The notes: generated from the letters alone by a model not told the origin. 64,000 nt of DNA from Haloplanus salinus (GCF_003336245.1 NZ_QPHM01000004.1:1-64000); one strand, 5' to 3'. Shown: positions 15,984 through 35,080, counted from the first letter of the stretch. Made by a program: numbers and translations.

Positions 15984-17041
15984 GACGAAAGAAATTGATA
16001 TACAAGATGCCTTATGACTGAGCAAGAGAACTCTAGTCAGATGAACGGACGGCCTTCACTACCCATTGAACGTGGCTTTCCGATCGAGAAGGTGAACGCC
16101 ATCGCTGAAAAAGAAAGTCGAGCAGGGAGGTGGTATCGTCCGGTATATACAATGCATAAGTGGTGGTCACGAAAAGTGGGGAGTCTTTTCCGAGCAATTA
16201 CACTATATACATTATTAGATGAAAACACGACAAAAAAGGACGTAGAACTATATGAACCTAGCGAAAATGAAACTTTAGGAGATTTTCCTAAAGATATAGA
16301 CAACCTCGTTGAATCTATCAATGATGTAGATATGGATAATCCAGATTCACTTTGGGATTTCTACCACAAAGATATTCGAATTAAAGACAAGAAGATACTT
16401 GATCCGTTTATGGGCGGTGGGACATCAATTAGTGAAAGTTCACGGTTTGGAATAGATTCAGTAGGTATTGATCTGAATCCCGTCGCGTGGTTCATTTCCA
16501 AAAAACAACTAGATGCTGGTGAAACTACTGTTGAAGATCTTGACTCAGCATTCCAGGAAATAAAAAGTGATGTTGAAGATGAAGTAAAAAAATACTACGT
16601 CACCCCCTGTCCAAACGGAACTCACAATGCTGATGTGATATATAATTTTTGGGTTAAAAAAATCAGATGTATCTCCTGTAACCACAAAATTCCCTTATTC
16701 AGAGATTATCGTGTTGCAAAAGGCCGGTATGAAAATGACGAAAAATATAACACATATTGTCCTGAATGTGAGTCAATTACCTATACTAAAAATGATGGAC
16801 CCGAAAGTGAATGTAATGACTGCGGGAATCTGTTTTCTCACAAAGAAGGGAACGTAACTCGGGGAGGGTATTATAATTGTTCAGAATGTGGTCAAAAAGC
16901 ATCAATTACAGATGCTATTGAGGACCAAGACGGGTACGATATCCAACTTTATGCGGTTGAATATTACTGTGAAACTTGCGACAATAAGGGATTGGGCAAG
17001 AACTCATATAAAGCGTACAAAAAAGCTGGTCCAGAAGATAA

Positions 17042-17732
17042 CGCGGTGTTAAGTTAAGGAAGAGGCGGGACGAAGATTCAGTGCTCTATGCCGAAAACCG
17101 CCCGCCTCACCGAGTGTACCGAGTGGATCGACTTGGAGTTTGTGGAGCGAGAGCGGACACCCCGCGAGATCATTGAAAAGGGTATTCGTCACCATCTTGC
17201 TGGACTATCACTTTCGAATACAGTTATTCTTCTTGAGGAATTGGGTGTCCAGCGAAGTCGTGTTGCTGTTCACAACTGGGTACAGAAAGCCGATCTACAG
17301 CCGGCTGACGGTGAGTGCCCGGATCGCGTTGCGGTCGATCAGAAAGCGATCCGGATCAACGACGAGCAGTACTGGCTGTACGCTGCCGTCGATCCACAGA
17401 CGAACAGAATCCTTCACTCACGGCTGTTTCCGACGTATACGATCCCGATCGCACGAGAATTTCTCACTGAATTAGCTGAGAAACACGATGTCGAAGACAC
17501 GCTGTTTCTCGTCGATGACGCAGACGATCTGATCGGTGGACTCCGCCGCGAAAACTACAGCTACCGCATCGAACAACACGGCTTCAGAAATTCTGTCGAA
17601 CGTGTTTTTAGAGAAGTAGAACGACGAACCTCTTCGTTTTCAAACTGTTTCAGCCACGTCGATCCACCGACCGCGGAAACGTGGTTACAAGCCCACGCCG
17701 TCTGGTGGAATCATGCTTAAGTTAACACGACG
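17042..17732 (+). mobile_element. IS6-type insertion sequence with 8-bp target duplication
   Basis: A 691-bp element bounded by the direct repeat GAAGATAA (17034-17041 and 17733-17740), the 8-bp duplication typical of IS6. The ends are inverted repeats: the first 18 bases (17042-17059) match the complement of the last 18 (17715-17732) at 14 positions, including GTGTTAA and TTAAG. The perfect duplication and the still in-frame flanking gene point to a recent insertion. Confidence 0.9.
17088..17720 (+). CDS. IS6-family transposase
   Basis: 210 residues, the full length for short haloarchaeal IS6 transposases. A helix-turn-helix lies near residues 40-65 (SLSNTVILLEELGV then SRVAVHNWV). The DDE core has VAVDQKAI near 80, FLVDDADDL near 145 and a Glu in VERVFREVERR near 167. 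The composition is GC-rich compared with the AT-rich host gene, marking it as an insert. It fills nearly the whole element, and its stop codon overlaps the right inverted repeat. Confidence 0.9.
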   Translation: MPKTARLTECTEWIDLEFVERERTPREIIEKGIRHHLAGLSLSNTVILLEELGVQRSRVAVHNWVQKADLQPADGECPDRVAVDQKAIRINDEQYWLYAAVDPQTNRILHSRLFPTYTIPIAREFLTELAEKHDVEDTLFLVDDADDLIGGLRRENYSYRIEQHGFRNSVERVFREVERRTSSFSNCFSHVDPPTAETWLQAHAVWWNHA

Positions 17733-19367
17733 GAAGATAAGCAATTATTTGAAGAAGCTAAGAGTGAGTGGAAGACCCGAACTGATCTTCACCAATACGT
17801 TCCTAGCGAAGAAATTCCCGCAGGACATATGACCTCTGAACGGAATCCGGTATTTGACCACGGATATCAGGAATGGACAGATATGTATAATGAACGGCAG
17901 CTACTCTCATTGTCGAAAATCATCAAGTCAATTGATTCGATTAGCTCATCTAATCTACAAGAGATTTTGCTTATTGCACTCAGCAATTCATTGTCTACTA
18001 ATAATATGATGACTCCTTACGATCGAAATTATAATAAAATCCAACATTTATTTAAAACGAATTCATTCGACCCTACTGGTACTCCTTGTGAGGGGAATGT
18101 TTGGGGTTCGGAGTTTGGGCGTGGAACCTTCGAATCAGTATATGACATGGTAAAAGCGGGGGTAGAGTATGCAAATGCACCTACTGAACGATATATTGAA
18201 GATAACGAAACTAAAGAAACATCTGAGTTTTCTCAGCCAATTGGTCAAAATACAGAAGTTTTCCAAGATGACATGCGAAATATTGTATCTAAGAATGAGT
18301 ATGATGTGATTATTACTGATCCACCATATTATGATAATATAATTTATTCAGAGGTATCAAATTTCTATTATGTTTGGCAAAAGATCTTACTTAAAAAAGA
18401 TTACTCCTGTTTTGAATCGGAAAAAGTGCCACAATCAGAATCGATTGTTACAAACCCGTTTCTCCAGAAAACCGCAGATGATTTTGAACATGAAATGGGA
18501 GAAGCCCTTGATGTAATCAACCAAGCGCTGAAACAAGATGGAACTCTCGCTTTCACCTACCACCACAGCGATGAGGAATCTTGGGGAGAGCTACTCCAAT
18601 CTCTGTGTGAGGCTGGCTTTGAGGTTACCGCAACGTATCCAATTAATTCTGAATTAAACAAATTTGTTAGTGGGGAAACGGTCTCTTTTGATATTGTTAT
18701 TATTGCTCGACCAATTGAGAACCGCTCCCCAATTTCGTGGAACACTCTGCGTCGTCACATAGTCAAAACTGCCAAACAAACTCATGAGACACTCGAAAAA
18801 GAGCGTGATCTTGCTAGTGGAGATATAGGTGTTATTGAGATGGGAAAATGCTTCCAAGAGTATTCCAAGCACCACGGTGAAATTCGTGGTACAAGAGAAG
18901 GTATGACAGCAAAAGAAGTTGTAGATGAAATTTATGGTATCATACAAGATGGAGATCGTGGTGAACAAGATATCTATCTTGATCTTCTTGAACAGAATAA
19001 TCCTTCTTACAGTGATCTGAACAAGCATCTCAAACGTTCGGATGCCTCAAATGAGACAATGAAACAGATGAGGTTATTTAGAATGGAAGGCAATGATTTC
19101 ATTCTAATTAACTGGGATGATAAAAAACGCCAAGCATATATTCAAAATAAAATCGAGGAAGGCAGTGAGACTGTCACTGACTTGGATAAGGCACATTTCT
19201 TGCGATACCAATATGAGCATGGTAAATCACGCAATGAATATCTTAGCCAGTGGGAAACGGATGAATTACAAGAGCTTTGTGAAGACCTTGCCGCAATCAC
19301 CGGTGATGAGACCTATCTAAAAATGCTTAGCATCAATACAACTCTTGATGAAATATCTGGAAGATAG

Positions 19368-19725
19368 ATAGGGCTAGTACCTCACAAAGTTGGTTAATTA
19401 AGAGGACTGCTCGCTGAAGCTGTGCCTAATACCTGGCGACGCCCGCTTAATGATCGCAATTAGATCTAAAAGATTTCCATAATATTCGGGTAGAAGCTAT
19501 CTATCCATATTCCTCACCCCGATCTAGCAGCCAGCGAATTTGAGGAAGTCAAGATAGATTCTGCGCCTTCTTATTGTTGAGACTGAATAATTCGGGAATT
19601 CTGACGCCTCATTTTCCCGTTTTTATCAGGCCTGAGTAATGAAAAGTCGGGTTTTCGGGGCAATATATTAGACGATAATACTCTCGTGTACCTTCAGTGG
19701 TTCCTTGGAGGCTATCTCATTTACC
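19368..19725. other. Intergenic region downstream of methylase A
   Basis: About 360 bp between the end of methylase A and the IS5-type element. I see no open frame, RNA gene or repeat that I can support. It retains the AT-rich composition of the patch and ends at the target duplication of the neighbouring IS5-type element. Confidence 0.4.
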
Positions 19726-19733
19726 TTCTAGAT

Positions 19734-20671
19734 GGCCGTGGTGAATCGCCATACTGCGGTTGATTTCACGGTGTGACGGCTCGCTTGATGTTGTGGACGA
19801 CACATTTCAGGACGATTTCTCGGAACTCACGAAACCACGCTCGCGCACGCACGGCGTCGCCGAGCGTGCGCTTGATCGACGAGAAGACGGTCTCACACAT
19901 CGATCGCTGGCGGTATCGAGGCCCATCGATCCGCGCGTTGTGCGCGTGGTCGATGGGCCGGAAGATACGATGCTTGATCAGTGGTCTCACGCCCTCATCC
20001 CTGAGATTTTCGCGTAATTCCATCCAGTCGTAGCCTTTGTCGGCAGTGAGGCTGGTCAGGTCGCCCGCGTTGCGGCGGGCGACCTGCCAGCCGAGTTGCG
20101 TGTCGTGCGGTTTCCCGGTCGAGCAGTGAACGTCGAGAACCGCTTGTGTTTCCGTATCGACGAGCGCGGTGGTTTTCAGCGTCTGGACGCGGTAATTCGT
20201 CCGGCGACAGTAGTGCTTGCTGGCGGTTTCGCGGTCGAAGAACGTCGCGTCGATGGCAGCGTGACCGCTCACATCGTGCAGCTGCGCCGACAGGCGCAGC
20301 AGCACGCGCCAGAGCGCGGTCTTGATCCTGTCAAACCACTTGACTAGCGTCGAGTGATCTGGGAGATCGGCCTCGTCGAGGCCGATCTCGGCCAGGATTT
20401 GTGGCATCTCGCTCAGCAAATCGAGTGTCTCTCGGTACGATTTCTCCAAGTACACCCGCAGACAGTGCAGCGACACGACCGCGTACTTGGCGAAGTCGCC
20501 GCCCCCGAAGGGGGTGGCGGCTTCGCCTCGCCCACCGACAGCATTTTGAGCTAACTGAACCGCTTTGCTCGTGAAGCGGGAAATCTTCGACATAGAGCAT
20601 CGGCGGTTTCCCGCTTCATTCCACTAGTTCTGACGGTCGAAGCCGACGCCGTCCAGCGATTCACCAGAGCC
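19734..20671 (-). mobile_element. IS5-type insertion sequence
   Basis: A 938-bp element flanked by TTCTAGAT at 19726-19733 and 20672-20679, an 8-bp target duplication; two more matching bases on the left make the exact edge ambiguous. The ends are inverted repeats: GGCCGTGGTGAATCGCC at the left against GGCTCTGGTGAATCGCT at the right, read inward. Both the duplication and the transposase are intact, so the insertion looks recent. It sits between the methylase A region and the DUF4143-type ATPase gene. Confidence 0.88.
19766..20593 (-). CDS. IS5-family transposase
   Basis: 275 residues with the IS5 DDE core: AAIDATFFDRE near 113-123 (first Asp), LTADKGYDW near 180 (second Asp) and the C-terminal ETVFSSIKRTLG near 235 (Glu). 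The N-terminal KISRFTSKAV and the DHSTLVKWFDR segment are typical of the haloarchaeal members. The frame is complete. A decayed fragment of a related C-terminus is present near 48.5 kb. Confidence 0.92.
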   Translation of the reverse strand: MSKISRFTSKAVQLAQNAVGGRGEAATPFGGGDFAKYAVVSLHCLRVYLEKSYRETLDLLSEMPQILAEIGLDEADLPDHSTLVKWFDRIKTALWRVLLRLSAQLHDVSGHAAIDATFFDRETASKHYCRRTNYRVQTLKTTALVDTETQAVLDVHCSTGKPHDTQLGWQVARRNAGDLTSLTADKGYDWMELRENLRDEGVRPLIKHRIFRPIDHAHNARIDGPRYRQRSMCETVFSSIKRTLGDAVRARAWFREFREIVLKCVVHNIKRAVTP

Positions 20672-20864
20672 TTCTAGATAGGAGATCCACGTTCAATGGG
20701 GAATCCCGTCCGTTTAGTCGATTTCTGCTGTTCCAGAAACATCGTAGATGTATGACCCAACACAGGTATGAGTCATAAACATACTCGAGTTACTGCATAC
20801 AATAGTCTTATTCTGAAGAGTCAGAACCTCTATCTGATACGTCTTCAACTGTTTTACCTATTCG

Positions 20865-22724
20865 CTAAGATAGCCGAAGATACGTCCAAAGTGGAACCTG
20901 AATGATTGGCTTCGAACCGTCAGTATTGACGGTAACTCCTTCATCCAGCGCTGACCGCGCATTTGTAAGCACAATCCCGAATGCTGGTTCAGCGTCGAAC
21001 GCAGCCTTCCCGTCATCACTGAGCTCCCCACCGTACTCGTCTTGCTCGGCGTATGCTCGCCTCTGCTTGGTGAAGGTATCCGTCACAGGACTGTACATTT
21101 GCTCATCGACTCGGTCTCGTTCGCTCTCGTAGGCATCGCTCTCGAGGAACTCCTGTAACGCATCGAAATCAGGCGTATCTCGACTCATCTGGAGTTCGTC
21201 CAGACCCCGGTTGTGGGACCACAGTATCGGAATGGGACTACCGCGTATTTTGGGAACAAAGTCGACGGTGCCCTTCGATCCCTCCCAGAACTTGACCACT
21301 CCACGCTTCGGATCGTGGGGATGGTCGAGTTCGTTCGACAACCGGATCGTGTGATCGAACGCGACTGCTTTCGCCAGCGCCTCGTCCAGACCTGGTTCAC
21401 GCCGGAGGACGTCGTTGAGATCGTTCCGACAGAACGCGTTCGTGAGCCCTGGATCCCGCAGGTAAAATCGGAGCTTCCGTGGTCGCTGATTGTCGTATTC
21501 CTGTGCTGCCGATAGCAGGTGGAGTCGTGAGAGGGCGCTGAGATACTTATCTCGGAGGGTCCGGCGGTCGACATCGAGCACTTCGGTCAGCTCGTCGAAG
21601 CGCACGTCTCCGGTCGGGTGTTCGTGAGCAGCGAGGCCACAAAACCGCTCCAAGCCGAGCGCGTCCTTCACCCCGCCGAGGCTCGTCGCGGCGTGCAGGA
21701 GATCGTCTCTGAAGTCGGAGAGCAGCTCCCGTTGGTGGGCTTCGAGGTCGACATCGTCACGTCCACGGAGCACGTCGACAAATCGCTCCTCGTCAATCGA
21801 GATGCCGTCACCGGCGATTCTGAGCGTCAGCATCCCCCCGCTCGTACAGTAATTCGCGATCTCCCGCCGCACCGTCGACGGGTCAGCAATTGCGTCGCTG
21901 TTCTGAGCTTCGATCTCGGCTACGAATCGGTTAGTGTCTCCCGCCTCGACAGCCTCCAGTAACGCCTTTCGAACCGCGCCCTCATCGAACCGCTCGGCCG
22001 CTGGTGCGAGTTCGATGTCACGGTATCGCATCTTGAGGAAATCGGCGAAGCCCATGGGATACAGCTCACGCGTCTCGCCGCGGATCCCTTCATTCACTTC
22101 TGCAAGGTCGGTCTCCTCAAATCGCTCCCGTACGGCACCTCTCGAAAGCGCCGTGAACACGATCCGGCGGTCATCGTGTTCGGCGATCAAGTCCGTAAGG
22201 AGGCGCTCCCAGCGACCGACATCTTGATTCCCGCGTTTCTTTGGTCGCTCAACCGTATGGAGATCGTCTAGCAGGATGTAGTGCGGGGATGACTGGGAGT
22301 GCCGCAGGACGTGCGTCTCGAAGTGATCCACGGCTGCTCGGAGCTGGGCTTCCGGCTGAAGTTGGAAGACTGGATCGTCTCGAAGAGGGATGTACAGCAC
22401 GTCCGATGGGGATACGAGGTGCTCTTGAGCCTGCTCACGCCTGTCCACATCTCGAATGAACTTCTCTACGAAATCCGGGTCAATATGCGCGGAGGCCAGT
22501 TGCTCGAGAAGGGCGGTTTTTCCAGTCCCGTCAGGGCCGGTTATGGGAATCAACCGCCGTTGCTGCTGATGTAGCTCGTCGTATGTTTGATAGAAGCTAT
22601 CCTGGAGCGAGGAATAGTTACCAGTTAGACTCGCCTCTCGACCGCGCTCCCACCACGGGTTGTATTCCTCAAGTCGCTGAATGAGGGTGTGCCCAGAAGA
22701 GAATGACTCCGAGTCGAATGCCAT
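20865..22724 (-). CDS. AAA ATPase with DUF4143-like C-terminus (COG1373-like)
   Basis: A 619-residue protein. Residues about 55-75 hold Walker A GPDGTGKT after the strand RRLIPIT. Walker B is YILLDDLH near 168-175. A region rich in winged-helix-like helices follows. The C-terminal segment VVKFWEGSKGTVDFVPKIRG resembles the FWR-EVDFV strand of DUF4143 in COG1373 ATPases, where it forms a nuclease-like fold, although the usual EVK motif is not clear (IPILW in its place). COG1373-type ATPases are frequent in archaea and mobile regions, and their substrates are mostly unknown. The gene is transcribed away from the McrB-like gene; the 118 bp between them must hold both promoters. Confidence 0.65.
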   Translation of the reverse strand: MAFDSESFSSGHTLIQRLEEYNPWWERGREASLTGNYSSLQDSFYQTYDELHQQQRRLIPITGPDGTGKTALLEQLASAHIDPDFVEKFIRDVDRREQAQEHLVSPSDVLYIPLRDDPVFQLQPEAQLRAAVDHFETHVLRHSQSSPHYILLDDLHTVERPKKRGNQDVGRWERLLTDLIAEHDDRRIVFTALSRGAVRERFEETDLAEVNEGIRGETRELYPMGFADFLKMRYRDIELAPAAERFDEGAVRKALLEAVEAGDTNRFVAEIEAQNSDAIADPSTVRREIANYCTSGGMLTLRIAGDGISIDEERFVDVLRGRDDVDLEAHQRELLSDFRDDLLHAATSLGGVKDALGLERFCGLAAHEHPTGDVRFDELTEVLDVDRRTLRDKYLSALSRLHLLSAAQEYDNQRPRKLRFYLRDPGLTNAFCRNDLNDVLRREPGLDEALAKAVAFDHTIRLSNELDHPHDPKRGVVKFWEGSKGTVDFVPKIRGSPIPILWSHNRGLDELQMSRDTPDFDALQEFLESDAYESERDRVDEQMYSPVTDTFTKQRRAYAEQDEYGGELSDDGKAAFDAEPAFGIVLTNARSALDEGVTVNTDGSKPIIQVPLWTYLRLS

Positions 22725-22842
22725 GGGATCTGTCTCAATCCCACAATTAATCTACATAGGTATGTTTCTTTGTATCTCCCTAGCTCACGTTCTTCCATCT
22801 ATACACGTTGTTTTATGGTAGCCCCCCGATATTTCCCAATTA

Positions 22843-24075
22843 ATGAGTAGCGGGACGCCGAAATTCGAGGACTACGACCGCGAGGAGGCAGAGGAATTCA
22901 GAGGCTTCATCGTAAATTCGAGCGCGTCTGCCACTGACTTTATAAATCGCACCTCTAGCCCAGACGCATTACGATATCTCGTCGAAGACGCGGAAATTGA
23001 CAGGCGCGTCTCTGGAAATCGTAATGAGGTTCGTCAGGCCCTTCTGACCTCAAATGTCACCCCGTTCGAGGTCAAACAGACCGTCGCCCAACGGAATTAC
23101 AATCTGGGCGAGACGCTCGTCCCGGACACAGTCAAGAAGAACGCCCTCACCGCTATCGAAGTCGGGAAGCCAATCGTTCTCTACGGGCCGACCGGCACCG
23201 GAAAGACCTATTTCGCAAAGCAGCTCGCACTGGAGGCGTGCATCGACTACTCGATCCACACCGCGACACCGACATGGACACCTGCGGACATCACCGGTAG
23301 TATCCAGCCGGAGACGAAAGACGGCGAGATTGAGTATCATCGCCGAGCAGGCTGCGTCTCACAGGGCATCCAGAAGGCAAACGAGTATCAGGACAATTGG
23401 GGCGTCATTATCGACGAAATCACCCGGGCAGACATCTCTCAGGTATTCGGGCCACTGTACACCGCTATCGAGGACGAAGATCAGGTTATCTTCCGTAATG
23501 ACGACGGGGATCCGCTCACGCTCAACGACAACGTCAAGATCATCTGTACGATGAATATGTCGGACCGGACAGTGAACGAACTCGACAATGCGATTACTCG
23601 TCGCTTCGCGATGATAGAACTCAGTCGCTACGGTGACGAGGAGCGGGCCTCGCTGTTCGACCGCTGGATCGGAGAACTCGGCTCCGATGTGGATATCGAC
23701 CGCGACAAGCTTCAGGAACTCTTCGAGAGCCACCACCAGGGGATCAACGAGGGCACAACGACCAGCGGTGAGGACGGAATTATGGAGTTCGGGCCGATGC
23801 ACTATGAGGACGTCACCCAGTTCCTCAAGCACGCCTGTGGAGACGGCGGTCAGTACAGAGGTGAGGAAGATGTCGCAGTCGGGCAGGCCTTCGCCACGTA
23901 CATTGCGCCTCGCATCCTGAACACGGCGGCACTGCCCCAGATCAATCGCCTCGCGAGTCACTACGAGACGCTCGACAATCAGTTCGAAGCGTTCGACCTT
24001 AGCCCTGCTATGGACCTCGCGAACCAGCAGGCGGAGGCTGAGGAACGCGAGATGGGCGTCAGCGCCTATGAGTAA
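22843..24075 (+). CDS. mcrB: McrB-like AAA+ NTPase (type IV restriction, copy 1)
   Basis: 410 residues. The first 100 are a helical, probably target-recognition or adaptor region, with no EVE/YTH-type reader that I can recognise. The AAA+ domain has Walker A GPTGTGKT (115-122), Walker B VIIDEITRAD (188-197), sensor 1 and McrB signature CTMNMSDRTV (about 235-244), and the arginine pair ITRRF (251-255). McrB proteins form GTP- or ATP-driven hexamers that translocate and activate McrC to cut modified DNA. The stop overlaps the McrC-like start by 8 bp. A TTTTATGG sequence about 28 bp upstream of the ATG is a plausible TATA element. The short N-terminus means that target specificity is not predictable from sequence. 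Confidence 0.82.
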   Translation: MSSGTPKFEDYDREEAEEFRGFIVNSSASATDFINRTSSPDALRYLVEDAEIDRRVSGNRNEVRQALLTSNVTPFEVKQTVAQRNYNLGETLVPDTVKKNALTAIEVGKPIVLYGPTGTGKTYFAKQLALEACIDYSIHTATPTWTPADITGSIQPETKDGEIEYHRRAGCVSQGIQKANEYQDNWGVIIDEITRADISQVFGPLYTAIEDEDQVIFRNDDGDPLTLNDNVKIICTMNMSDRTVNELDNAITRRFAMIELSRYGDEERASLFDRWIGELGSDVDIDRDKLQELFESHHQGINEGTTTSGEDGIMEFGPMHYEDVTQFLKHACGDGGQYRGEEDVAVGQAFATYIAPRILNTAALPQINRLASHYETLDNQFEAFDLSPAMDLANQQAEAEEREMGVSAYE

Positions 24076-25867
24076 CGCTGTCCGCTACGACTACGGTACC
24101 TCCCTCTGCTCCGTCCAGGAGAATCGAAAGCTCATCATCGAGGACTGCGATCCGGATACGATCAATAACGAACTTCGGGCGGCGAACTTCGTTCGCGAGG
24201 GGAGCAAATTTGTCAAGAAGCGCCCCCGACTACGGACTCGATCCGGGCGAAATTCCGAGTCGGATGCGCTACAAGTCCTTTCAGTACGCCTCGTGGATGA
24301 CACACTCCACGTCGAGCCCTCAGACGTCGTCGGAATTGTGAGGCTCGTCCCGGGGATGAGCGTCCAGGTCGAACCCAAGGTCGACTGGGAGCACGTCATT
24401 CAGATGCTCCTTACGGTCTACGACATCGACAGGACGCAGTCTCATTACGGAGTACCGCTCGACGAGCTGGTGTCAAGCGGCGTCGAATCCGCGCGCATTA
24501 TCGCCATTCTGGCGATCAACTACGTTCATGGTGTCCGAACGATCCGCCGTGAGGGATTCATTCGGGATCTCAATATTCGTCGCCGGGACGGGTTCGAAGG
24601 ACTAGGTTCAATCGACGTCGAGCAGACGCTGATGAATCACGCAACGGGGAACCCGGCTCCGACCTGGATCGAAACACAGGTCGAGTACGCTAACCCTGTG
24701 AATTCGGCAGTTCATATGGCTGGAAAGCTGCTCCTCAGGCTGCTCCAGCAGGATCAGAACGGCCATCAGCACCCCCGCCAGGATGTGCTCCTCTCCATGG
24801 TTCATCAGGAGGTTGAACGAATGGAGGAGCTGGGTATCCAGAGTAGTCAGAAGGAAATCGGAGGATATCGTCGACTCTCTCTCCAGGATCTCCCCCGACA
24901 ACGTCATTACTACCGTCGAGCGTTCCACACTAGTCAATCGATTCTCTCGTCGACATTGCTCGGACAAGCTGGGGGTGGCCCGGAGGAACTCCTCGTCGAC
25001 TATGCGCTGAGCATGAATAAACTGTTCCAGGATTACTCCAATCGGGTCCTTAACCGGAAAGTGGAATCCCTACGCCAGATTGACTACCTGGATCAGCTAT
25101 CGGAGGTCAAATGTAAGCCTGAGCCGCCGATTTATCCTTTCGCTGGGAACTCTGAAGCTCGCCACCAACCTGATCACCTCCTCACAGACGGAGACCAAAC
25201 GCTCGCGGTGCTTGACTCCAAGTACTATCAAGCGGGCAAGAATCCAGCTAACGAGTCTGCATCCCGGTCGAGGATGTTCGCGTACGCCTATCTCACGGAG
25301 ACCGACCGGATGGCTTTCCTCTGCCCGCAGTATCGCAATGTTCGACTTCCCGTACAACACACTGGGGCAGAAATAGAGGTCGTCTCACCTGACGGAGACT
25401 TCACTTGCGAGGACTACGAGGAGGTCATCCGAAAGTACATCTTGGAGACGCTCGCGATTACGTATCCTGAACTCCACGTTTTCGAGGCGACTTCCGATGC
25501 ACACCTCAGTCTCAGTGGCGTCTCAGAGGAGGCTCTTTCGGAGGTTCACGATACGAACGGCCCCTTCAGCATCAGTAATCCCGCTACGTTCGCTGACCGG
25601 GTCATCGCGGCGATTGCATTCGCGTCCTATGGACCAAACAAACCGGAACTAGAAAACCAGGGTCAGTGGACGAAGGCCCGAATCAAAGAGGCGTGTACAA
25701 AGACGGATGAGGAAGACCATCCAAAATACCCGCAACACGAGACGACGTGCATCCCAATATACGATCCTGAGGGGAATGACGATCACGGGACTGTGACCCT
25801 GCACTTCCTCAGATCGGATCAGGAGGGCACCTCAGTAAGCACAGAAGGGCCATTCCCCCTGATGTGA
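24068..25867 (+). CDS. mcrC: McrC-like nuclease subunit (type IV restriction, copy 1)
   Basis: 599 residues, long for McrC (usually 350-450). The N-terminal barrel includes the VEPKVDW segment (101-107) seen in McrC as the I-PKI strand. The nuclease core carries PD at 368-369 and DSK at 383-385 (LAVLDSKYYQ), the PD-(D/E)XK triad. About 160 residues follow the nuclease domain and match nothing that I recognise; they are the unusual feature of this copy. The gene overlaps the McrB-like gene by 8 bp, so the two are translationally coupled and should form one complex. Confidence 0.82.
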   Translation: MSNAVRYDYGTSLCSVQENRKLIIEDCDPDTINNELRAANFVREGSKFVKKRPRLRTRSGRNSESDALQVLSVRLVDDTLHVEPSDVVGIVRLVPGMSVQVEPKVDWEHVIQMLLTVYDIDRTQSHYGVPLDELVSSGVESARIIAILAINYVHGVRTIRREGFIRDLNIRRRDGFEGLGSIDVEQTLMNHATGNPAPTWIETQVEYANPVNSAVHMAGKLLLRLLQQDQNGHQHPRQDVLLSMVHQEVERMEELGIQSSQKEIGGYRRLSLQDLPRQRHYYRRAFHTSQSILSSTLLGQAGGGPEELLVDYALSMNKLFQDYSNRVLNRKVESLRQIDYLDQLSEVKCKPEPPIYPFAGNSEARHQPDHLLTDGDQTLAVLDSKYYQAGKNPANESASRSRMFAYAYLTETDRMAFLCPQYRNVRLPVQHTGAEIEVVSPDGDFTCEDYEEVIRKYILETLAITYPELHVFEATSDAHLSLSGVSEEALSEVHDTNGPFSISNPATFADRVIAAIAFASYGPNKPELENQGQWTKARIKEACTKTDEEDHPKYPQHETTCIPIYDPEGNDDHGTVTLHFLRSDQEGTSVSTEGPFPLM

Positions 25868-26277: not shown

Positions 26278-26312
26278 GTCATCACGAACGTCTCACAGGA
26301 GTGTGAAATACG

Positions 26313-28946
26313 TTAGTCCCTGAGGATCTGACGGAACGTCTCGTCCCCAGTGATGTCCGCAAGTTCGGATGCTACGTCCATCATTTCTCCTGTGACCTCC
26401 AGTTCACGGCTCTCTTCCCTGGGTTTGGTCTCCTCATCAGCAGCGTATCGGAGGAGCTGTACCCGTTCGAGAGCAGAGAGTTCGTCAGGGGCTTTCGCTT
26501 GGAGGTAAGCCATCCGCTGCTCATCGTGCCACCGTAATAACGTGAAGCCATCTGTGGTGTCGAAAAACGCCCGTTCCTGGAGGTCCTTTGGGCTGACTCC
26601 AGTTCCCCGACACAAACGGTTCACATCGTTAAACGTGGGCTCTCCCATCGACAAGAGGCTCAGGTAGATTTCGTCGGGGGAGACACCATCATCACCAGCG
26701 ATGATGTCGTACATCCCGGCGACAACGTCAGTCGCGGACATAACGGATCCCTCACGATGGACCTTGCCGTGGTGTTTGGAATATTCTCGGAAACACCGTC
26801 CGAGTTTGACGACGCTGATATCGCCTTCGGAGATGGTTTGTCCCTCCTGAATCTCCTCCTCCGTTCGCTGCGCGGTCCTGTACATCTGTCGTCGAAGCGC
26901 AGCCCAGCTGATCGGGTCGCGATCCGTCATCGGTCGTGCGACCACGATCACGCTGAAGGAGAGTTCGTCGCCCATTACGAACTCGCTGAGATTGGCCGAG
27001 ATCGGATACGTCGCAGTCACGTCAAATCCTTCGTCGCACAGAGACTCGAGGAGCGCCCCCCAGGACTCGATTCCACTGTGCCGATACGTGAACGTGAGTA
27101 CGCCGTCGTCCTTCAGCACGTCCCGCATCCGGGAGAACGATTGCTTGAGCTCCCTCTCGAAGGTAGCTCCGTCCTTGTCGATAGCCGGGTTCGCGACGAT
27201 GCTCTCTTCGCGAGGCGTCGTTTCGGGGGTAAAGCAGGAGTATTCATCCGAGAGAAGCAGCCGTTGCCAGACGTAGAAGAAGTCTGAGACCTCCGAATAG
27301 ACGACGTTGTCGTAGTACGGGGGATCAGTGATGATGGCGTCATACTCCGATTCAAGCTCAACGTCCCGGACATCGCCCTGGTGGAGTGTGTATTCGCCAC
27401 CGACCGGGTTCTCAAACGAATCCGTCTGTTTGAGTTCTCCATCTTCGAGGTACCGCTCCGTGGGCTGATGGGCGAACTCGACGCCGTTGACGATTTTCTC
27501 CCACGTATTCTTGAACGTGCCTCGCCCAGCTCTCGTTCCCCAGACGTTGTTTTCCGCATATTCGACCTGGGGTTGGTAGGAGTTCTGTCTAAAGATCCCC
27601 TCTATTTTCGTCCCGGAGATATTGTAGAGGGCGAAGTTATTCTGGAACATCAGAGAGTCGCTGAAAGCGAGGAGGAGATACTCCTTGACGGTCTGGTCTT
27701 CGACGTCATCGATGGCAGAGAGCAGTGTCGAAAGACAGTAGAGCTGGCGATCGTTGAACATGTCCGACCACGTCTCGTAGCCGTGGCGGAAGACATCGTT
27801 TCCATTGATGCCGGACGCTGCCGTGATCGCACCTTCAGGGATTTCACTCTGAGGGATATACGCATCTAACTCCTCTGCAGAGTGCCACGCCTCGCTAGCA
27901 TGATCGAACTGAGTACGATCTTTGTCAGTTGCCGCAGTGAAGCCCTTGAACGTCGCTCGATCCTTGCCTTCGTCCTCACACTCCGTACAGTAGTACTCGA
28001 TCGCGTAGAGATCCTCGGCGTACGACTGCCCGTCGGCAATCGCATCGACGATTGGATACTGCAGACCGCACGACGGGCATCCGTAGTTACCGCCTCGAGA
28101 GACTGGACCGTTCGCCGGGATGTACTCGTAGCCACACTCCGTACAAACGGACTCGGTTTGGTAGTCGTCAGTCAGAAAGACGGATTCACAGTCCGGGCAG
28201 TAGACGTTGTATTTGTCATCGTCCTCGTAGCGACCGTTCGCGACGCGGTAATCTTTGAACAGTGGAACCGTCTCGCCACAGGAAGTGCAGTCTAGCTTCC
28301 GTACCCAGAGCGCATACACGACGTCAGCAACGTGGTTCTCGTCGTGAGGACAGGTAGTCTCATAGTGAGACTGGAGTTCGTCTGCGACGGTCGCTCGGAC
28401 ATCGTCGAAGGCCTGTTGCAGCTCGTCGGCATCGACCTCGTGAGCTTCAAGGCTCTTTTTTGAGATGAACCACGCGACAGGATTCAAGTCGACACCGGTT
28501 ACGGCTGCCCCGAATCGGATGGCCTCCATGAGGCTCGTCCCACCGCCCATGAACGGGTCAAGGACGGTCTTCCCGTCAACGCGAACGTCTTTCGGATACA
28601 GCTCCCAGAGCGCGTCGGGCTCGGTGAGACTGACCGACTCGATGAGTTGAGCGAGATCCTCGGTGGTGGTGTTTTCTGTATCGCCGTCGCCGAAATCGGA
28701 AAGGTTCAGATTTTCCTGGTCTGCACTATGGATTTCGACAGCGCTAGGATCGTCGACTAACGAGTACAGCGAGATCGCCCTGAACACGCTCCCGAGCCGT
28801 CTAGCCCACCATTTGTGCATCGTGGACAGCGGTCGGTAGTACATCTTAGCGCGGCCCTCACGGTCAGCGAGGTCGTTCACCTGCTCGATGGGGAACCCCC
28901 GCTCGATAGGGAGCGTATCCCGCGAGTTCGCGTCCGGGTCAGACAT
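26313..28946 (-). CDS. DUF1156 adenine-specific DNA methylase B (COG1743, zinc-ribbon type)
   Basis: 877 residues. The DUF1156 head is LPIERGFPIE (12-21) and MHKWWARR (43-50). SAM-binding DPFMGGGT is at 130-137. About 130 residues with repeated zinc-binding cysteines lie between 199 and 323 (CTSC, CPDC, CTEC, CPSC). The catalytic TDPPYYDN is at 540-547. The long zinc insertion between the SAM motif and DPPY is characteristic of this class. COG1743 enzymes are predicted N6-adenine methylases of defence islands and pair with DUF499 ATPases. The DUF499 gene is 39 bp upstream on the same strand. It is clearly diverged from methylases A and C, which resemble each other more, so its target may differ. 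Confidence 0.88.
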   Translation of the reverse strand: MSDPDANSRDTLPIERGFPIEQVNDLADREGRAKMYYRPLSTMHKWWARRLGSVFRAISLYSLVDDPSAVEIHSADQENLNLSDFGDGDTENTTTEDLAQLIESVSLTEPDALWELYPKDVRVDGKTVLDPFMGGGTSLMEAIRFGAAVTGVDLNPVAWFISKKSLEAHEVDADELQQAFDDVRATVADELQSHYETTCPHDENHVADVVYALWVRKLDCTSCGETVPLFKDYRVANGRYEDDDKYNVYCPDCESVFLTDDYQTESVCTECGYEYIPANGPVSRGGNYGCPSCGLQYPIVDAIADGQSYAEDLYAIEYYCTECEDEGKDRATFKGFTAATDKDRTQFDHASEAWHSAEELDAYIPQSEIPEGAITAASGINGNDVFRHGYETWSDMFNDRQLYCLSTLLSAIDDVEDQTVKEYLLLAFSDSLMFQNNFALYNISGTKIEGIFRQNSYQPQVEYAENNVWGTRAGRGTFKNTWEKIVNGVEFAHQPTERYLEDGELKQTDSFENPVGGEYTLHQGDVRDVELESEYDAIITDPPYYDNVVYSEVSDFFYVWQRLLLSDEYSCFTPETTPREESIVANPAIDKDGATFERELKQSFSRMRDVLKDDGVLTFTYRHSGIESWGALLESLCDEGFDVTATYPISANLSEFVMGDELSFSVIVVARPMTDRDPISWAALRRQMYRTAQRTEEEIQEGQTISEGDISVVKLGRCFREYSKHHGKVHREGSVMSATDVVAGMYDIIAGDDGVSPDEIYLSLLSMGEPTFNDVNRLCRGTGVSPKDLQERAFFDTTDGFTLLRWHDEQRMAYLQAKAPDELSALERVQLLRYAADEETKPREESRELEVTGEMMDVASELADITGDETFRQILRD

Positions 28947-28985
28947 AGTAGCTGGTGGTTCCGTCTTCGTATTTGAAGCTGCGCG

Positions 28986-31900
28986 TCATTCGAACTGGAT
29001 GGTGATGTCGATGCTTGTGGCAGACTCAGGGATGTTCTCCAGAATGTCGGCGACGATCTCGTGAGATTGTCCGAGTTCGAGTTGCAGATCCGTATGGGCC
29101 TGCTGGAACTCAGCGACCCCTTGGAGACCGCCAGGCACTGCGCCCTCACCATCGGTATTGAATGAAATCGATCCGTACGAGACGGAGCCAGATTCGTGTG
29201 ATTCGTTCCACTCCTGGCGCATCTCTGCCGGGCTGTCGCCTTGGTATTCGAAAGTCCAGCCCTCCTCCGGCGGGATGCGGAACCCAGCGCCGGGGAACCA
29301 GTCTGCAGGATCCTCTGAGCCAGTCGCGCCGACAACGTAGTGTGGGTCCTCCTTTCCGAGGTTTGCGAGCAGGAAGTGTTTGACCGCCGCCTCGGGCTGT
29401 CCCGCAGCGCATTCACTCTGAATCGACTGTACCTGGAAGGTGGCTTCCTCATCGAGGTCGCCAATATAGTTCAGAATCCGGTCGCCGATGTCCTCGGGAA
29501 CCATCGGCGCGAGGACGACGGACGTGGGGTCACGATCACCGAGGGTACTGACGTAGTCGCCTCCAGTTTTGAGCTTGTATCCATCCGCCAGGAGCGCACT
29601 TACTGCGCTTCGGAATGCGGACTCGGTATCGTCTTGCGGGAGGTAGACCTCAGCGTCATTCCGGATGGTCGTAAGAACCTGACTGGTGTCGGCTTCGCCG
29701 GCGGCATCAACCGTCTCCTCGATACGGTCACGAATCTCGTTTGCTCCGAGCGTCTCAGCGTCCGAGACGTCTCGGAGCGTCGCGTCAGAGCGAACTTTGT
29801 CGAGGATTTCACTGCCGCTGACGAGGACGTAGTGATCCTCGTTTGCCAGCCGCCCGGCAGCCATCTTGACGGCGTCTTCCGGGTCTTGGTCGTGAATCCA
29901 CACGTCGGTCCGCTGGCGAAGATCGAGTTCGAACGATCCCAGGTCGACTTCCTTCGTTCCGGCGCCGAAGCGCCCCCGAAGTTCGGATTCGACCTCCTCA
30001 GTCGACCACTTCTCGACGTCGCTCTCCAGAACGAGCACCGTGTCCTGATTCAGCCCGCGAAGTTCGTCCTTGAACCCGCTACCATCGTGGGCGAGGATCG
30101 GCTTGTCTCCGAGTCCGTCTTCGACGGCGTTGACGACTGCCTGCGCGCTCCCCGGAATGGGATACGTCGGGTCCATCAAGAACTGCTCGTAGATGTCGTC
30201 GATGGTCGTTTCGGAGCGGTTGTCGAGGCGATCGCGGACGATGTCCCAGACGTGACGCTGGAGATCGAAGGGATCCGCCTCCGCTGCTGCGGCGATGTTG
30301 CTGGCGTTCAGGACGGGTTCGGTGGCGACGAAGTTCTCCAGCGACATCTCGGCCGCGTAGTCGAACTCGTTGAGGAGGTCGTCGCCGTCGATGATTTCCC
30401 CGTAGGCGCTCTCCAAGCGTTCGAGGAGATCGTCTTCGTACTCATCGTGGAGCTTTGCAATCTCCTCGCGAATCTCCTCTGCAAGGTTCTCGTCCGCCTT
30501 GCGGATCTCTGCGCCGATGACCTCCTTGGCCTTCCCCAGGAACTTCTCCTGCTGCGAGGTGGGCGAGATGGTCTTGCCGTTCTTGGGCTGGACGAACACC
30601 AGCGTGTTCCGCCATTGTCGACCGGCAGGCTGATTCTTGATGATCTCACCAACGCTGTCAGCATCCCAGGGACCGTTTTTCACGACGGTTTTGATGTTCT
30701 GGCTATCGGGGACGTTCTCGAGTTCGCTGTCGACGTTGAAGCCGACCGCGTGTGCACCCGAGCCGAATAGCGTTTCGACGGTGTCACCAACGAGCTCGAT
30801 CGCGTCTTCATCGTCGACGTCTCGAGCGGCGTTCTTTACGAGCGAGCGCGGGTTCTCATCCTCACGGATGACGTAGCGGTCGTCGGAGCGCCAGAGGTGG
30901 TAGACTTCGCCTTGGAGACGTTCGAGGTCGACGATGATGTCGTTGATGCGGTCGCCGGCGTGGTAGGTTCCGATAACGATGTCGGAGGTGGTCGCGCCCT
31001 CAGCGAGCCCCGGCGTGAGCGAGTAGATGAGAACAGTGCTGAGGATGGGTCGGCCGTAGGTGATATCGGCGTCGGCGAGACGTTCTCGGATGTCGTCGTA
31101 ACACCGGTCCGGGCGGGAGTGTTCGACGTTGATGCGGGTGAGTTCGTCGTTGTACTCGACGGCGTCGACCTCGCCGTGCGTGAGAAGGTCAGTATCCTGG
31201 TACTGATCGACGAGTACCTTTGCGAAGAGATACAGCATCCCCCGAGTCGCCCCCGACTCGGTCTCCGCGAAGTAGCGGGTTTTCAGCGAGTCGATGAGGA
31301 TCGGGTGGAACGGGTAGGTGTCGTACATCTCTTCGCGGAGCCCATCTGGAAGGTCGACGTAATCAGTGTCCGCGTAGGCTTCGATGTACTGGTCGACGAG
31401 CGTGCGCATCGCCGAGCGGTCGTGGATAGAGTCGACGAGACGGTGACGGAGAACGTCCCGAATGTCGACCTGGTTGGACATATTGACCTGAACGCGCTCG
31501 GGCTCGCGGGACAGGATATCGTGGACGTCAGATCCCTCACGAAGCACGGAGACGAATGCGAACAATTCCGTGTTGGGACGGGATGTCGTCTCGAAGAGCG
31601 CTTGCAGGAACCCGCGGTTCGCGTCTTTCCGGCGACCGCTGAGCGAGCCGAACCAGTCCTCGAGTTCGTCCATGAAGAACGCGACGGTACGGTCGCCGAC
31701 CGCGTCCTGGATGACGTCGATGCTCGGGTAGCCACCCTCCTCATCGTACTCTTCCTCATCCGGTTCGTAATCCAGCTGTTCGAACAGCGGCTCCCAGAGG
31801 TACTCGTACTGCTCCTTCTGGAGGGAGACTACGACCGGGAGCGCGTCGTCAGGGAGCGCTTCTCCAAGCCCTTCGATACGGCCATCAGCCCAGTCGCCCA

Positions 31901-32222
31901 CCACGTCGGGCGAGTTGAAGCAGTGATACAGCGCGACCATCTGGTGGGACTTCCCGGTCCCGTACGGCCCATACATCTCGTGGAGGCGGTTGTTGTCCTC
32001 GCCCCGACGAGTGTCTCGGAGCCGTTTCAGGGAGTCCTCCAGCCCACCGGTCAGCAGCGTCCGGTTGAAGAATCGCTCTGCGTCGGATTCCAGCGTATCG
32101 GCCTCGCTGTCGACATCATAGAGGCGGATCTGGCCCTTGATGAGACTATCCCCCTCAGTGAGCTCCGGACTGAGCGTCAGCACGTCGTCAATCGTGGTAT
32201 CGAGAGTTCCTTCTGTGCTCAT
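28986..32222 (-). CDS. DUF499 AAA ATPase (COG1483) of methylase-linked defence system
   Basis: 1078 residues. Walker A GPYGTGKSH is at 85-93 and Walker B FFMDELED at 182-189. The wording MYGPYGTGKSHQMVALYH is diagnostic of DUF499. The central and C-terminal two thirds are helical regions with winged-helix-like segments, without a nuclease motif that I can see. Members form large ATPases associated with COG1743 methylases and SNF2 helicases; biochemical function is not established. Here a single DUF499 gene serves two intact methylases, one on each side (methylase C upstream, methylase B downstream). A separate TATA element lies upstream, so it can be transcribed independently of methylase C. 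Confidence 0.85.
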   Translation of the reverse strand: MSTEGTLDTTIDDVLTLSPELTEGDSLIKGQIRLYDVDSEADTLESDAERFFNRTLLTGGLEDSLKRLRDTRRGEDNNRLHEMYGPYGTGKSHQMVALYHCFNSPDVVGDWADGRIEGLGEALPDDALPVVVSLQKEQYEYLWEPLFEQLDYEPDEEEYDEEGGYPSIDVIQDAVGDRTVAFFMDELEDWFGSLSGRRKDANRGFLQALFETTSRPNTELFAFVSVLREGSDVHDILSREPERVQVNMSNQVDIRDVLRHRLVDSIHDRSAMRTLVDQYIEAYADTDYVDLPDGLREEMYDTYPFHPILIDSLKTRYFAETESGATRGMLYLFAKVLVDQYQDTDLLTHGEVDAVEYNDELTRINVEHSRPDRCYDDIRERLADADITYGRPILSTVLIYSLTPGLAEGATTSDIVIGTYHAGDRINDIIVDLERLQGEVYHLWRSDDRYVIREDENPRSLVKNAARDVDDEDAIELVGDTVETLFGSGAHAVGFNVDSELENVPDSQNIKTVVKNGPWDADSVGEIIKNQPAGRQWRNTLVFVQPKNGKTISPTSQQEKFLGKAKEVIGAEIRKADENLAEEIREEIAKLHDEYEDDLLERLESAYGEIIDGDDLLNEFDYAAEMSLENFVATEPVLNASNIAAAAEADPFDLQRHVWDIVRDRLDNRSETTIDDIYEQFLMDPTYPIPGSAQAVVNAVEDGLGDKPILAHDGSGFKDELRGLNQDTVLVLESDVEKWSTEEVESELRGRFGAGTKEVDLGSFELDLRQRTDVWIHDQDPEDAVKMAAGRLANEDHYVLVSGSEILDKVRSDATLRDVSDAETLGANEIRDRIEETVDAAGEADTSQVLTTIRNDAEVYLPQDDTESAFRSAVSALLADGYKLKTGGDYVSTLGDRDPTSVVLAPMVPEDIGDRILNYIGDLDEEATFQVQSIQSECAAGQPEAAVKHFLLANLGKEDPHYVVGATGSEDPADWFPGAGFRIPPEEGWTFEYQGDSPAEMRQEWNESHESGSVSYGSISFNTDGEGAVPGGLQGVAEFQQAHTDLQLELGQSHEIVADILENIPESATSIDITIQFE

Positions 32223-32250
32223 GTATACCCGACACGATGGCCGACCATCT

Positions 32251-32257
32251 TATTAAA
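32251..32257 (-). promoter_or_regulatory. TATA element for the DUF499 gene
   Basis: On the minus strand the sequence reads TTTAATA, ending 29 bp upstream of the DUF499 ATG at 32222. This suits a leaderless or near-leaderless archaeal transcript. The 200-bp gap to methylase C otherwise contains no open frame that I can support. Confidence 0.5.
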
Positions 32258-32422
32258 GTATGTATCGTAAGTTCCTCTCAGGTTCTATTATTTCTGTTTA
32301 GGTAGTTCGAAATTGGCTTTTAGATTATTAAACACAAGGTAATGTGTTTTACTTCACTGCGGGTGGGTGTTGGAACTCGAACTAGTGACTCAGCCGGCGA
32401 AGAAAGGAACTCTACTAAAGGT

Positions 32423-35080
32423 CTACTCGTCGGTGAATTCGTCCCAATTGGTGTTGTGGACACCAAGCATATTCAGATATGTCTCGTCTCCCGTCGCCTC
32501 GGCGAGACCCTCACAGAGTTCCTGAAGATCGTCGGAATTCCAGCGCTCTAAGTACTCCTTGATCAATTTGTCCTCTTCATAGCGGTAACGCAGGAAGTGA
32601 GCTTTGTCTAAGACAGTCAGATCACCATTCTCGCCGGTGACCTTATCTTGGACGTAGGCCTGACGCTTTTGATCCCTCCAGTCACCGATGATGAAGTCGT
32701 TACCCTCCATCCGGAAGAGGGCCTTCTCACGCATTTCCTCCTCAGAAGCTTCACTCCGCCGGAGGAGTTTGTTGAAGTCATCATAACGGGGGGAGAGATT
32801 CCTTTGGAGTGCCAGGAAGATATCTTGCTCACCAAGTGCGTTGTCCTGGATAATACCATAGATCTCCTGGACTGCTTCCTTGGCAGTCATAATTTCGCCG
32901 CCACGGCGAACCTCACCGTGGTGCTTCGAATATTCAGAGAAACAGGCACCCATTTCGACCACACCGATATCTCCTTCCGAAAGGTCTCGATGCTCTTGGA
33001 GGCTTTCCTGGATCTCCTCAAGTCTATTCATAATGTCAATCCTGAGACGCCGCCAGGAAATTGGTTGGCGATCCTCAGTCGGACGGGCGACGATGGCGAT
33101 ATCGAACGCGACAGCTTCTCCGCTGATGAACTTGGTTAAGTCAGAGTTGATCGGGTATGTCGCCGTCACTTCAAAGTCATTGTCACACAGTGATTCGAGG
33201 AGTTCGCCCCAAGACTCCTCATCGCTATGGTGATACGTGAATGCGAGCGTTCCGTCGCTCTTGAGGGCTTTGTTGATGACAGCCAGTGCTTCCCCCATTT
33301 CATGCTCGAAGTCCTCTGCTGTCTTTCCTAAATATGGATTTGTTACTATCGACTCTGCTCGTGGCGTTTTCTCTTGATCAAAGCCAGGATATTTGTCTTC
33401 TAGTAGTATCTTCTGCCAGACGTAGAAGTAGTCCGCTACCTCAGAGTAGATAATGTTGTCATAGTACGGCGGGTCAGTAATTACGGCATCGTACTCATTG
33501 GTCGCATCGATGAGTCGCATATCGCCTTGGTAGACTTCGGACCCTTTTCCGATTGGTTGGGCGAATTCCGATGTCTCTTTGGTCTCCCCATCTTCGACAT
33601 ACCGTTCCGTTGGTGCATTCGCGTATTCGACCCCGCGAATGACCATATCCCACATATTACGGAACGTGCCTCGTCCGTACTCGGCTCCCCAGAGATTACC
33701 TTCGATTAGATCGTTCTGAGGAGGGAAGGCCTTCATCCGGTGAAGTGCAGACTCAATCTTGTTAGCTGTATAATTATACATTGTCAGAAGATTGTAAAAC
33801 ATAATAGAGTCGGAAAGAGCCAGCAATAGATAGTCACCTGCCTCCCCGTCAATCTGGTCGATAGCCTTCATCATTTTTGCCAGATTGAGTAATTGTCTCT
33901 CGTTGAACATATCTGTCCACTCTTCCAACCCATGGTCAGAAAGAGGGTTTCTTTCGGAGGTCATATGCCCACCAGGGATTTTCTCATCGGGGACATATTT
34001 GTGGAGATCAGTCCGAGTTCTCCACTCTTGTTTCGCCTTCTCGACAAGTTTCTTATCTTCGGGGTCGGGTCGTTTGTAGCCTTTATACGAACTCTTCTCC
34101 AGGCCTTGCTGGTCGCATTCTTCGCAGTAATACTCGACAGCGTAAAGTCGCTGTCCGGGTTGTCCCTGGTCGGCTATGCCATTCGTTATAGATTCTTTCT
34201 GCCCACATTCCGGACAGTTATAGTATCCACCATTGGTCACCTGCCCATCTTCGGGTACAAACTTATGATCGCACTCATGACATTTGCTCTCCTCATGCCA
34301 GTCATCAGTGAGCGTTACCGTTCCGCAGTCCGGACAGAGAACGTAGTATTTTCCATCGTCTTCGAATCGTCCAGAGGCTACTCTGTAATCCTTAAGTAGG
34401 GGAATGGTATGTCCGCATGCCACACAATCGAGTTCCTTCACCCAGAAATTGTACATCACATCCGCGTCGTGATTGCCATTCGGACAAGGTGTGCGGTAGT
34501 ACTGACGAATCTCTTCAGCTACGTCCTCCTTCAACTGTTCATAGGCTTGTTGTAGCTCGTCAACGTCAGCCTCGCCCGCCTCCAGCTGCTTCTTTGTGAC
34601 AAACCAGGCGACTGGATTCAAATCATTTCCACGTGTTTCAACTCCAAAGCGTGATGCTTCGACAAGTGAAGTCCCACCACCCATGAATGGGTCGAGGATT
34701 TTCTTGTTCTTGATGCGGATATCCTTTGGGTAGAACTTCCATAGCGATTCGGGATCATCCATCGAGACCTCACCAATAGCGTCGATGAGGTCCTCTTTGC
34801 TCAGTCCATTACTACCCAAGGTCTGGTTTTCGCCAGGCTCGTATACCTCAACGTCGTTAGGAGTTGTACTTTCGTCAAGAAGCGAATATAGTGTAATTGC
34901 ACGGAAGAGACAGCCAGGTCTTCGTGCCCACCACTTGTGCATAGTATATACTGGTCGGTACCACTGCTTTGCGCGCCCCTCTTTCTGAGCAATCTCGTTT
35001 ACTCGCTCAATCGGGAAGCCACGCTCAATAGGAAGCTCAGGACGACCCTCCGACCGCTTAGATTGTTCCTGCTCAGACAT
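32423..35080 (-). CDS. DUF1156 adenine-specific DNA methylase C (COG1743, zinc-ribbon type)
   Basis: 885 residues with the same architecture as the other two: LPIERGFPIE (16-25), MHKWWARR (47-54), DPFMGGGT (130-137), cysteine pairs of the zinc region from 199 to 322 (CVAC, CPDC, CHEC, CPEC, CEEC), and TDPPYYDN (535-542). It is the nearest relative of the disrupted methylase A: the two align almost without gaps from the N-terminus to the insertion point and again through the C-terminal domain. Its base composition is intermediate between the AT-rich A copy and the GC-rich B copy, so the three do not share one recent origin by local duplication. It is the first gene of the minus-strand cluster and diverges from the unknown gene at 35182. 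Confidence 0.88.
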   Translation of the reverse strand: MSEQEQSKRSEGRPELPIERGFPIERVNEIAQKEGRAKQWYRPVYTMHKWWARRPGCLFRAITLYSLLDESTTPNDVEVYEPGENQTLGSNGLSKEDLIDAIGEVSMDDPESLWKFYPKDIRIKNKKILDPFMGGGTSLVEASRFGVETRGNDLNPVAWFVTKKQLEAGEADVDELQQAYEQLKEDVAEEIRQYYRTPCPNGNHDADVMYNFWVKELDCVACGHTIPLLKDYRVASGRFEDDGKYYVLCPDCGTVTLTDDWHEESKCHECDHKFVPEDGQVTNGGYYNCPECGQKESITNGIADQGQPGQRLYAVEYYCEECDQQGLEKSSYKGYKRPDPEDKKLVEKAKQEWRTRTDLHKYVPDEKIPGGHMTSERNPLSDHGLEEWTDMFNERQLLNLAKMMKAIDQIDGEAGDYLLLALSDSIMFYNLLTMYNYTANKIESALHRMKAFPPQNDLIEGNLWGAEYGRGTFRNMWDMVIRGVEYANAPTERYVEDGETKETSEFAQPIGKGSEVYQGDMRLIDATNEYDAVITDPPYYDNIIYSEVADYFYVWQKILLEDKYPGFDQEKTPRAESIVTNPYLGKTAEDFEHEMGEALAVINKALKSDGTLAFTYHHSDEESWGELLESLCDNDFEVTATYPINSDLTKFISGEAVAFDIAIVARPTEDRQPISWRRLRIDIMNRLEEIQESLQEHRDLSEGDIGVVEMGACFSEYSKHHGEVRRGGEIMTAKEAVQEIYGIIQDNALGEQDIFLALQRNLSPRYDDFNKLLRRSEASEEEMREKALFRMEGNDFIIGDWRDQKRQAYVQDKVTGENGDLTVLDKAHFLRYRYEEDKLIKEYLERWNSDDLQELCEGLAEATGDETYLNMLGVHNTNWDEFTDE

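Follow-up and report, generated by a model that had tools for sequence, protein, structure and literature searches.

Gene content of the locus

We analysed a stretch of 64,000 nucleotides of Haloplanus salinus (GCF_003336245.1 NZ_QPHM01000004.1:1-64000, hereafter the window), which contains three methylases of the DUF1156 family (COG1743). Two of them, B and C, are intact and flank the sole DUF499 ATPase, the third, A, is split by an IS6-family element (Table 1). All three matched PF06634 (DUF1156) over the curated cut-off, A with its first piece at 16014-17057 and B and C over their gene spans, and the ATPase matched PF04465 (DUF499). A whole-genome search with C found A (in two pieces), B and C and nothing else, and one with the ATPase returned the self-match alone. 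The G+C content was 39% for A, 50% for C, 57% for B and 60.5% for the ATPase gene; protein identity amounted to 60-63% between A and C and to 48% between C and B. B and C retain motif I (DPFMGGGTS) and motif IV (DPPYYDN), and the P-loop (G85-P-Y-G-x-G-K91-S) and D185-E186 of the ATPase were invariant in the homologue alignment. These data bear out most of a preliminary description of the window, which had listed three DUF1156 methylases, two intact and one AT-rich and disrupted, with one DUF499 ATPase, and had noted that such pairs often occur with a SNF2 helicase in defence-type loci: a SNF2 gene (PF00176) is indeed present. The distance of 12 kb given there for A had to be corrected to ~7 kb from B and ~13 kb from C.

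C, ATPase, B and orf131 follow one another in this order on the minus strand, separated by 200, 39 and 35 bp. Because they share a strand and lie at these distances, an operon is suggested. A chance arrangement could be excluded since the same layout recurs in other genera.

Table 1. Positions of the slots, genes and mobile element discussed in the text, in window coordinates
Feature	Position	Strand	Remarks
PIN gene	1-1044	+	
AddA/AddB-like genes	4119-11332	-	
HelC, SNF2 companion	11646-12842	-	coiled coil and C-terminal CxxC zinc ribbon; overlaps SNF2 by ~11 nt
SNF2/BrxHII/HmaA-like helicase	12832-14589	-	PF00176, PF00271; PADLOC DrmD, BrxHI/BrxHII and HmaA models
Slot A, variable interval	14592-20674	.	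break in 95.7% colinearity with Halorientalis litorea (G110)
Methylase A, A/C type, IS6-disrupted	16014-19367	+	PF06634
IS6-family element within A	17042-17732	+	NF033587
DUF4143 AAA ATPase	20865-22724	-	frequent neighbour in the multi-methylase subgroup, non-core
McrB1, McrB-like AAA_5 NTPase	22843-24075	+	AAA_5 E 2e-14
McrC1, divergent McrC-like PD-(D/E)XK nuclease	24068-25867	+	PF10117, slightly under the cut-off; probable effector
orf131, small protein specific to the system	25882-26277	-	without Pfam match
Methylase B, constant paralogue	26313-28946	-	PF06634; 39 bp downstream of the ATPase gene
DUF499 (HmaC/BrxC-like) ATPase	28986-32222	-	PF04465; single in genome
Slot C, variable interval	32265-35235	.	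colinearity with Halorientalis litorea (G110) broken; gene centre apparently exchanged with respect to H. persicus
Methylase C, A/C type, intact	32423-35080	-	PF06634; variable putative recognition region, residues ~326-500
Second McrBC pair, canonical	36282-39877	-	

Sequence searches of the Protein Data Bank gave no match for the ATPase profile and, for the methylase profile, a match to the short motif I region and nothing beyond. Fold searches with predicted models of orf131 and methylase C recovered a methyltransferase fold and otherwise no firm match; for orf131, modelled by AlphaFold2 with a predicted local distance difference test score of 90, matches to P-loop-like folds were weak (Z < 5).

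The break in methylase A falls near residue 342. An IS6-family transposase separates the two pieces, of which 16014-17057 encodes residues 1-348 and 17730-19367 residues 340-882. The element, at about 17042-17732, ends in imperfect 17-bp terminal repeats, of which 14 positions match, and is flanked by an 8-bp target duplication, GAAGATAA, at 17034-17041 and 17733-17740. Adjoining methylase A, a diverged paralogue of the TATA-binding protein (PF00352, 34% G+C) is encoded at 15283-15828 (+); further such paralogues lie by slot C in Halorientalis litorea (23382-23915 of our locus L156) and by slot A in H. persicus. They may drive the AT-rich genes of the slots.

A constant backbone and two variable slots

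Four pairs of loci have near-identical backbones (92-98% at the DNA level): they have in common the ATPase, B, SNF2, orf131 and the McrBC-like pair, and differ in the methylases of slot A or C. B was 95-99% identical in all four pairs. The window and H. litorea, which come from different families, align at 95.7% over 3984-14592 and 20674-32265 and at 92.7% over 35235-39864, yet the slot methylases of H. litorea share 55-68% protein identity with C of the window, and its slot A interval, of 2.7 kb, holds a different methylase. Directly next to the slot C methylase of H. litorea lies a gene for a 314-residue protein that has no Pfam match (L156, 19581-20525 (-)); it may travel with the allele. 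Between the window and H. persicus the backbone is the same and B is 99% identical. Both ends of C are conserved in this pair (400 nt upstream 99%, first 20 codons 100%, codons 781-885 93-100% at the DNA level), whereas identity in the centre was 20-58%, with 47-48% over codons 401-460. From this alignment, the interior of the gene looks as if it had been replaced by recombination.

The putative recognition region was defined as residues 326-500 of C of the window, with bounds taken from the alignment to H. persicus and afterwards used for all methylases. Haloarcula sp. CBA1115 and Halosimplex aquaticum, 98% identical over 15.9 kb and 99% in B, have C proteins that agree at 72% outside and 54% inside this region. 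Natronorubrum bangense and Halobiforma lacisalsi match at 92% over 13.9 kb, with values of 95/99 for B and of 59% and 46% for A. The N. bangense methylase C (G392:C4 107845-112127) is split by a 1.6-kb insert, copies of which in H. lacisalsi match at 99.6%. Between motifs I and IV, the A/C proteins and the methylases of single-methylase loci had a mean identity of ~50%, and in many pairs that are ~90% alike elsewhere the identity there was still 47-68%. The divergence of the recognition region suggests that A, B and C may differ in their target sites.

The constant part of the locus is its best conserved part, and for DUF499 ATPases variable C-terminal domains have been proposed to recognise invaders (PMC12839542). 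Restriction specificity might consequently reside in the ATPase or in B, and the variable methylases would just mark DNA, for instance for regulation or as a shield against other systems. We consider this unlikely: in bacteriophage exclusion (BREX) both activities take their specificity from the methylase (PMC11341690), and the variation seen here is concentrated in the putative recognition region of the methylases, as expected if targets change.

B behaved differently from A and C. Its identity values correlated with those of the ATPase with r = 0.98, as compared with 0.49 for C (10-12 non-independent points), and its stretch between motifs I and IV was conserved as much as the remainder, or more. 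In the methylase tree B makes up a long-branched clade with support 100, and A and C are intermixed. The TYHH motif, kept by all A/C proteins and nearly all methylases of single-methylase loci, is changed to TYRH or TYQH in 13/13 B proteins; two B proteins have furthermore lost DPPY (DLPF in Halosegnis rubeus, HPPY in genome G345). The B clade, the TYHH change and the co-divergence with the ATPase indicate that A and C resemble the ordinary methylase of the system and that B is a derived, constant paralogue.

There is a rival reading. Since B alone co-diverges with the ATPase and follows its gene directly, and since A and C are AT-rich, exchanged and sometimes broken by insertion elements, B alone might be cognate to the ATPase and A and C orphan methylases gathered in a defence island. 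This is improbable in our opinion: it is the A/C type, not B, that groups with the sole methylase of ~45 other haloarchaeal loci sharing ATPase, helicase, orf131 and McrB1/McrC1, and the slots are always found at the same two places.

To place the locus in its family, 391 genomes of the class were surveyed and the window proteins mapped onto the fetched relative loci. A DUF499 homologue was present in 77 genomes, and the close type (~45-100% identity) comprised 58 loci in 55 genomes. Since transfer links the homologous loci to one another, the number of loci is not a number of independent events, and the identity values serve as descriptive statistics. HelC and SNF2, the ATPase, a DUF1156 methylase, orf131 and a convergent McrC1-McrB1 pair make up the core common to most loci; some of those without SNF2 or McrB1 are cut by slice or contig ends, and the respective counts are lower bounds. 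Three methylases per ATPase occur in eight loci (the window, Halorientalis litorea, H. persicus, Halobiforma lacisalsi, Natronorubrum bangense, Halosegnis rubeus, Haloarcula vallismortis and genome G124) and two in four (Halosimplex aquaticum, Haloarcula sp. CBA1115, G081 and G036). Their ATPases form one clade of support 99, and all complete relatives in this subgroup kept the order C-ATPase-B. Halorussus ruber, with a distant ATPase (45%), has three methylases as well within the fetched stretch, and the expansion has therefore probably occurred more than once. Methylases were lost in Halocatena pleomorpha and in G142. A varying set of further defence-type genes is often inserted between ATPase, methylase and orf131 where a locus has a single methylase (L018, L020, L027, L044, L045, L056 and others), namely a GmrSD nuclease, a helix-turn-helix protein with a nucleotidyltransferase, PIN, a STAND-like AAA protein or a FokI-like nuclease.

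Given the conserved order and slots, we rejected an independent acquisition of three unrelated modules, and by the order kept in the relatives B and C did not turn out to be unrelated modules. The proposal of the preliminary description that one ATPase is combined with several methylases is thus supported. Its view of an expanded system has to be modified, however, in that the three methylases are not equivalent, B being tied to the ATPase and A and C resembling the single-locus methylase. A and C look separately acquired, as AT-rich slots whose contents vary between near-identical loci. The unit further includes the helicase, orf131 and the McrB/McrC-like pair, which the preliminary description had not counted in.

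The disruption of A here and of C in N. bangense, together with the loss of the methylases in Halocatena pleomorpha, could reflect a turnover series, in which a newcomer methylase arrives while an older one decays and one at any time functions beside B. We regard such a series as quite unlikely, given that in six loci all three methylase genes are uninterrupted, the A and C copies there keeping both catalytic motifs, and that the slots are the same across genera.

Partner genes and proposed mechanism

The SNF2 helicase was 73-99% conserved in most relatives. HelC adjoins it in 51/61 loci, several of the others being cut by slice ends, and probably represents the C-terminal part of the helicase, split off as a separate gene. 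McrB1 and McrC1 converge toward orf131. A pair of this kind accompanies nearly all haloarchaeal members of the DUF499 family surveyed: among 20 loci that were extended further, it was found in 18/18 single-methylase loci of the main type with intact core, and the exceptions were an orphan ATPase (L013) and a divergent locus (L061). In McrC1, P368, D369, D383, S384 and K385, the PD-(D/E)XK signature, were near-invariant in 26 homologues. The McrB1/McrC1 pair is probably the nuclease or effector, acting with the SNF2 motor. In a sample of 295 genomes of the phylum the ATPase type was present in 10 genomes and orf131 in 11, both together in 10, with the gene order of the window.

We favour, with some reserve, the interpretation that the locus encodes a mobile, BREX-related and restriction-modification-like defence system of haloarchaea, composed of a constant machine and exchangeable methylases that probably confer specificity. 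It is based on the observation that B tracks the ATPase, that C does not, and that the A/C recognition region has diverged. By comparison of the loci, the DUF499 ATPase, methylase B, orf131, SNF2 with HelC and McrB1/McrC1 are inherited together. A and C would each recognise and methylate a DNA word of their own and would be the specificity factor for modification and restriction alike, comparable to PglX of BREX or HsdS of Type I systems. B would be the constant partner joining A and C to the ATPase, or the marker of one fixed site. Incoming unmethylated DNA would trigger the ATPase and the SNF2 motor and then be cut by McrB1/McrC1. One machine could in this way guard two to three words together and gain new ones via cassette exchange; in the present strain, with A broken, B and C would remain. 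If replacement of A or C altered mark and target together, as with PglX, the tolerated swaps would be explained.

Several points weigh against this interpretation. The recognition region was delimited from its location between motifs I and IV and its variability rather than from a DNA complex, and McrC1 scored 23.2 bits against PF10117, slightly under the Pfam cut-off of 23.9. The mechanism and the specificities are inferred, as is, from their location alone, the coupling of the extra methylases to restriction. B of the window, moreover, retains both catalytic motifs. This last point bears on a more specific version, which we put forward tentatively and hold to be possible rather than probable: B would be a constant, largely non-catalytic adaptor docking the A/C methylases onto one DUF499 ATPase and the McrBC-like nuclease, one machine thereby reading two to three DNA words and gaining more by cassette exchange.

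The wider region is a defence island, since canonical McrBC, AddAB-like genes, a TmtA-like giant gene and an Mrr-type nuclease are present. The TmtA-like protein, a further defence gene product of 2057 residues, is encoded at 39974-46147 (+) (PADLOC TmtA, E 6e-163). A DUF790 protein lies beside an XPB-like helicase at 48787-51544 (-), with the Mrr-type nuclease next at 52454-53959, and a 1883-residue protein with PKD, Big and cadherin-like domains (58120-63771 (+)) is probably a surface protein. The AddA/AddB-like, canonical McrBC and PIN genes are 96-98% identical in Halosegnis rubeus (G314:C2), whereas its DUF499 ATPase reaches merely 67%; whole modules of the island therefore seem to be exchanged separately.

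Comparison with known systems

The closest relatives are the DUF499-centred BREX-related (BR) systems, also called Hma (PMC12839542; PMC8565338), which likewise combine a DUF499 ATPase, SNF2 and a DUF1156 N6-methylase with its recognition domain between motifs I and IV. The locus falls under their general definition, with matches to PF04465, PF06634 and PF00176 and to the PADLOC models HmaA, HmaB and HmaC. It differs by two to three methylases, exchangeable slots, a constant B, a helicase probably split into two genes, the McrB/McrC-like pair and orf131. The published types are defined by a helicase-nuclease (Type-1), DUF3780 together with an HKD nuclease on the helicase (Type-2) or PglZ, mostly accompanied by iSTAND (Type-3); in Type-1 the helicase is fused to an active C-terminal PD-(D/E)XK nuclease in 79% of taxa, and separate nucleases are allowed in the rest (PMC12839542). 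A Pfam profile scan detected no such fused nuclease in the 585-residue SNF2 protein or in HelC, and DUF3780 and HKD/PLD gave no match among the scanned locus proteins. PglZ (PF08665) had no match near the locus in this genome or in 21 others with the system or relatives, on which ground it was rejected as the effector of this locus. With regard to iSTAND, the resemblance of orf131 to P-loop folds was weak (Z < 5). McrB and McrC are absent from the main text of the DUF499 paper (PMC12839542). Because the general definition applies, the type-defining nucleases were not detected by the scanned models and that text does not include McrB/McrC, we regard the locus as a new variant within the DUF499 family. 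The open-access literature searched on COG1743 with COG1483, DUF499 and DUF1156 yielded no account of multi-methylase loci, and neither DUF1156 nor DUF499 comes up in surveys of haloarchaeal and archaeal restriction systems.

McrB1 and McrC1 would be distant relatives of the Type IV enzyme McrBC, with an AAA_5 NTPase and a PD-(D/E)XK motif, but are linked to a methylase system, the canonical McrBC of the window being separate. With BREX (PMC11341690) the locus shares a BrxC-like ATPase, a BrxHII-like helicase and a large methylase that presumably decides which DNA is marked and which is attacked; it differs in having no PglZ in or near it, a DUF499 instead of a BrxC ATPase, and several methylases. 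In BREX, the targets of methylation and of restriction are set by PglX, and both change when it is engineered (PMC11341690). Near-identical machines that differ mainly in their slot methylases constitute a natural experiment on how BREX-like targets are set and changed. A comparison of the methylomes of such loci would assign motifs to slots directly and show whether, in DUF499 systems, the methylase is the restriction specificity factor and the McrBC-like proteins are the nuclease. A BREX-related machine with several specificities would be a new route to wider antiviral defence.

Type I systems with duplicated hsdS (PMC7394358), finally, also consist of one machine whose specificity modules are varied by recombination. 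The proteins are unrelated, the variation at the present locus lies between species, and no invertase or inverted-repeat switch was identified there. The likeness to hsdS exchange lies in the four backbone pairs, in which the same machine is found with different putative specificity modules.

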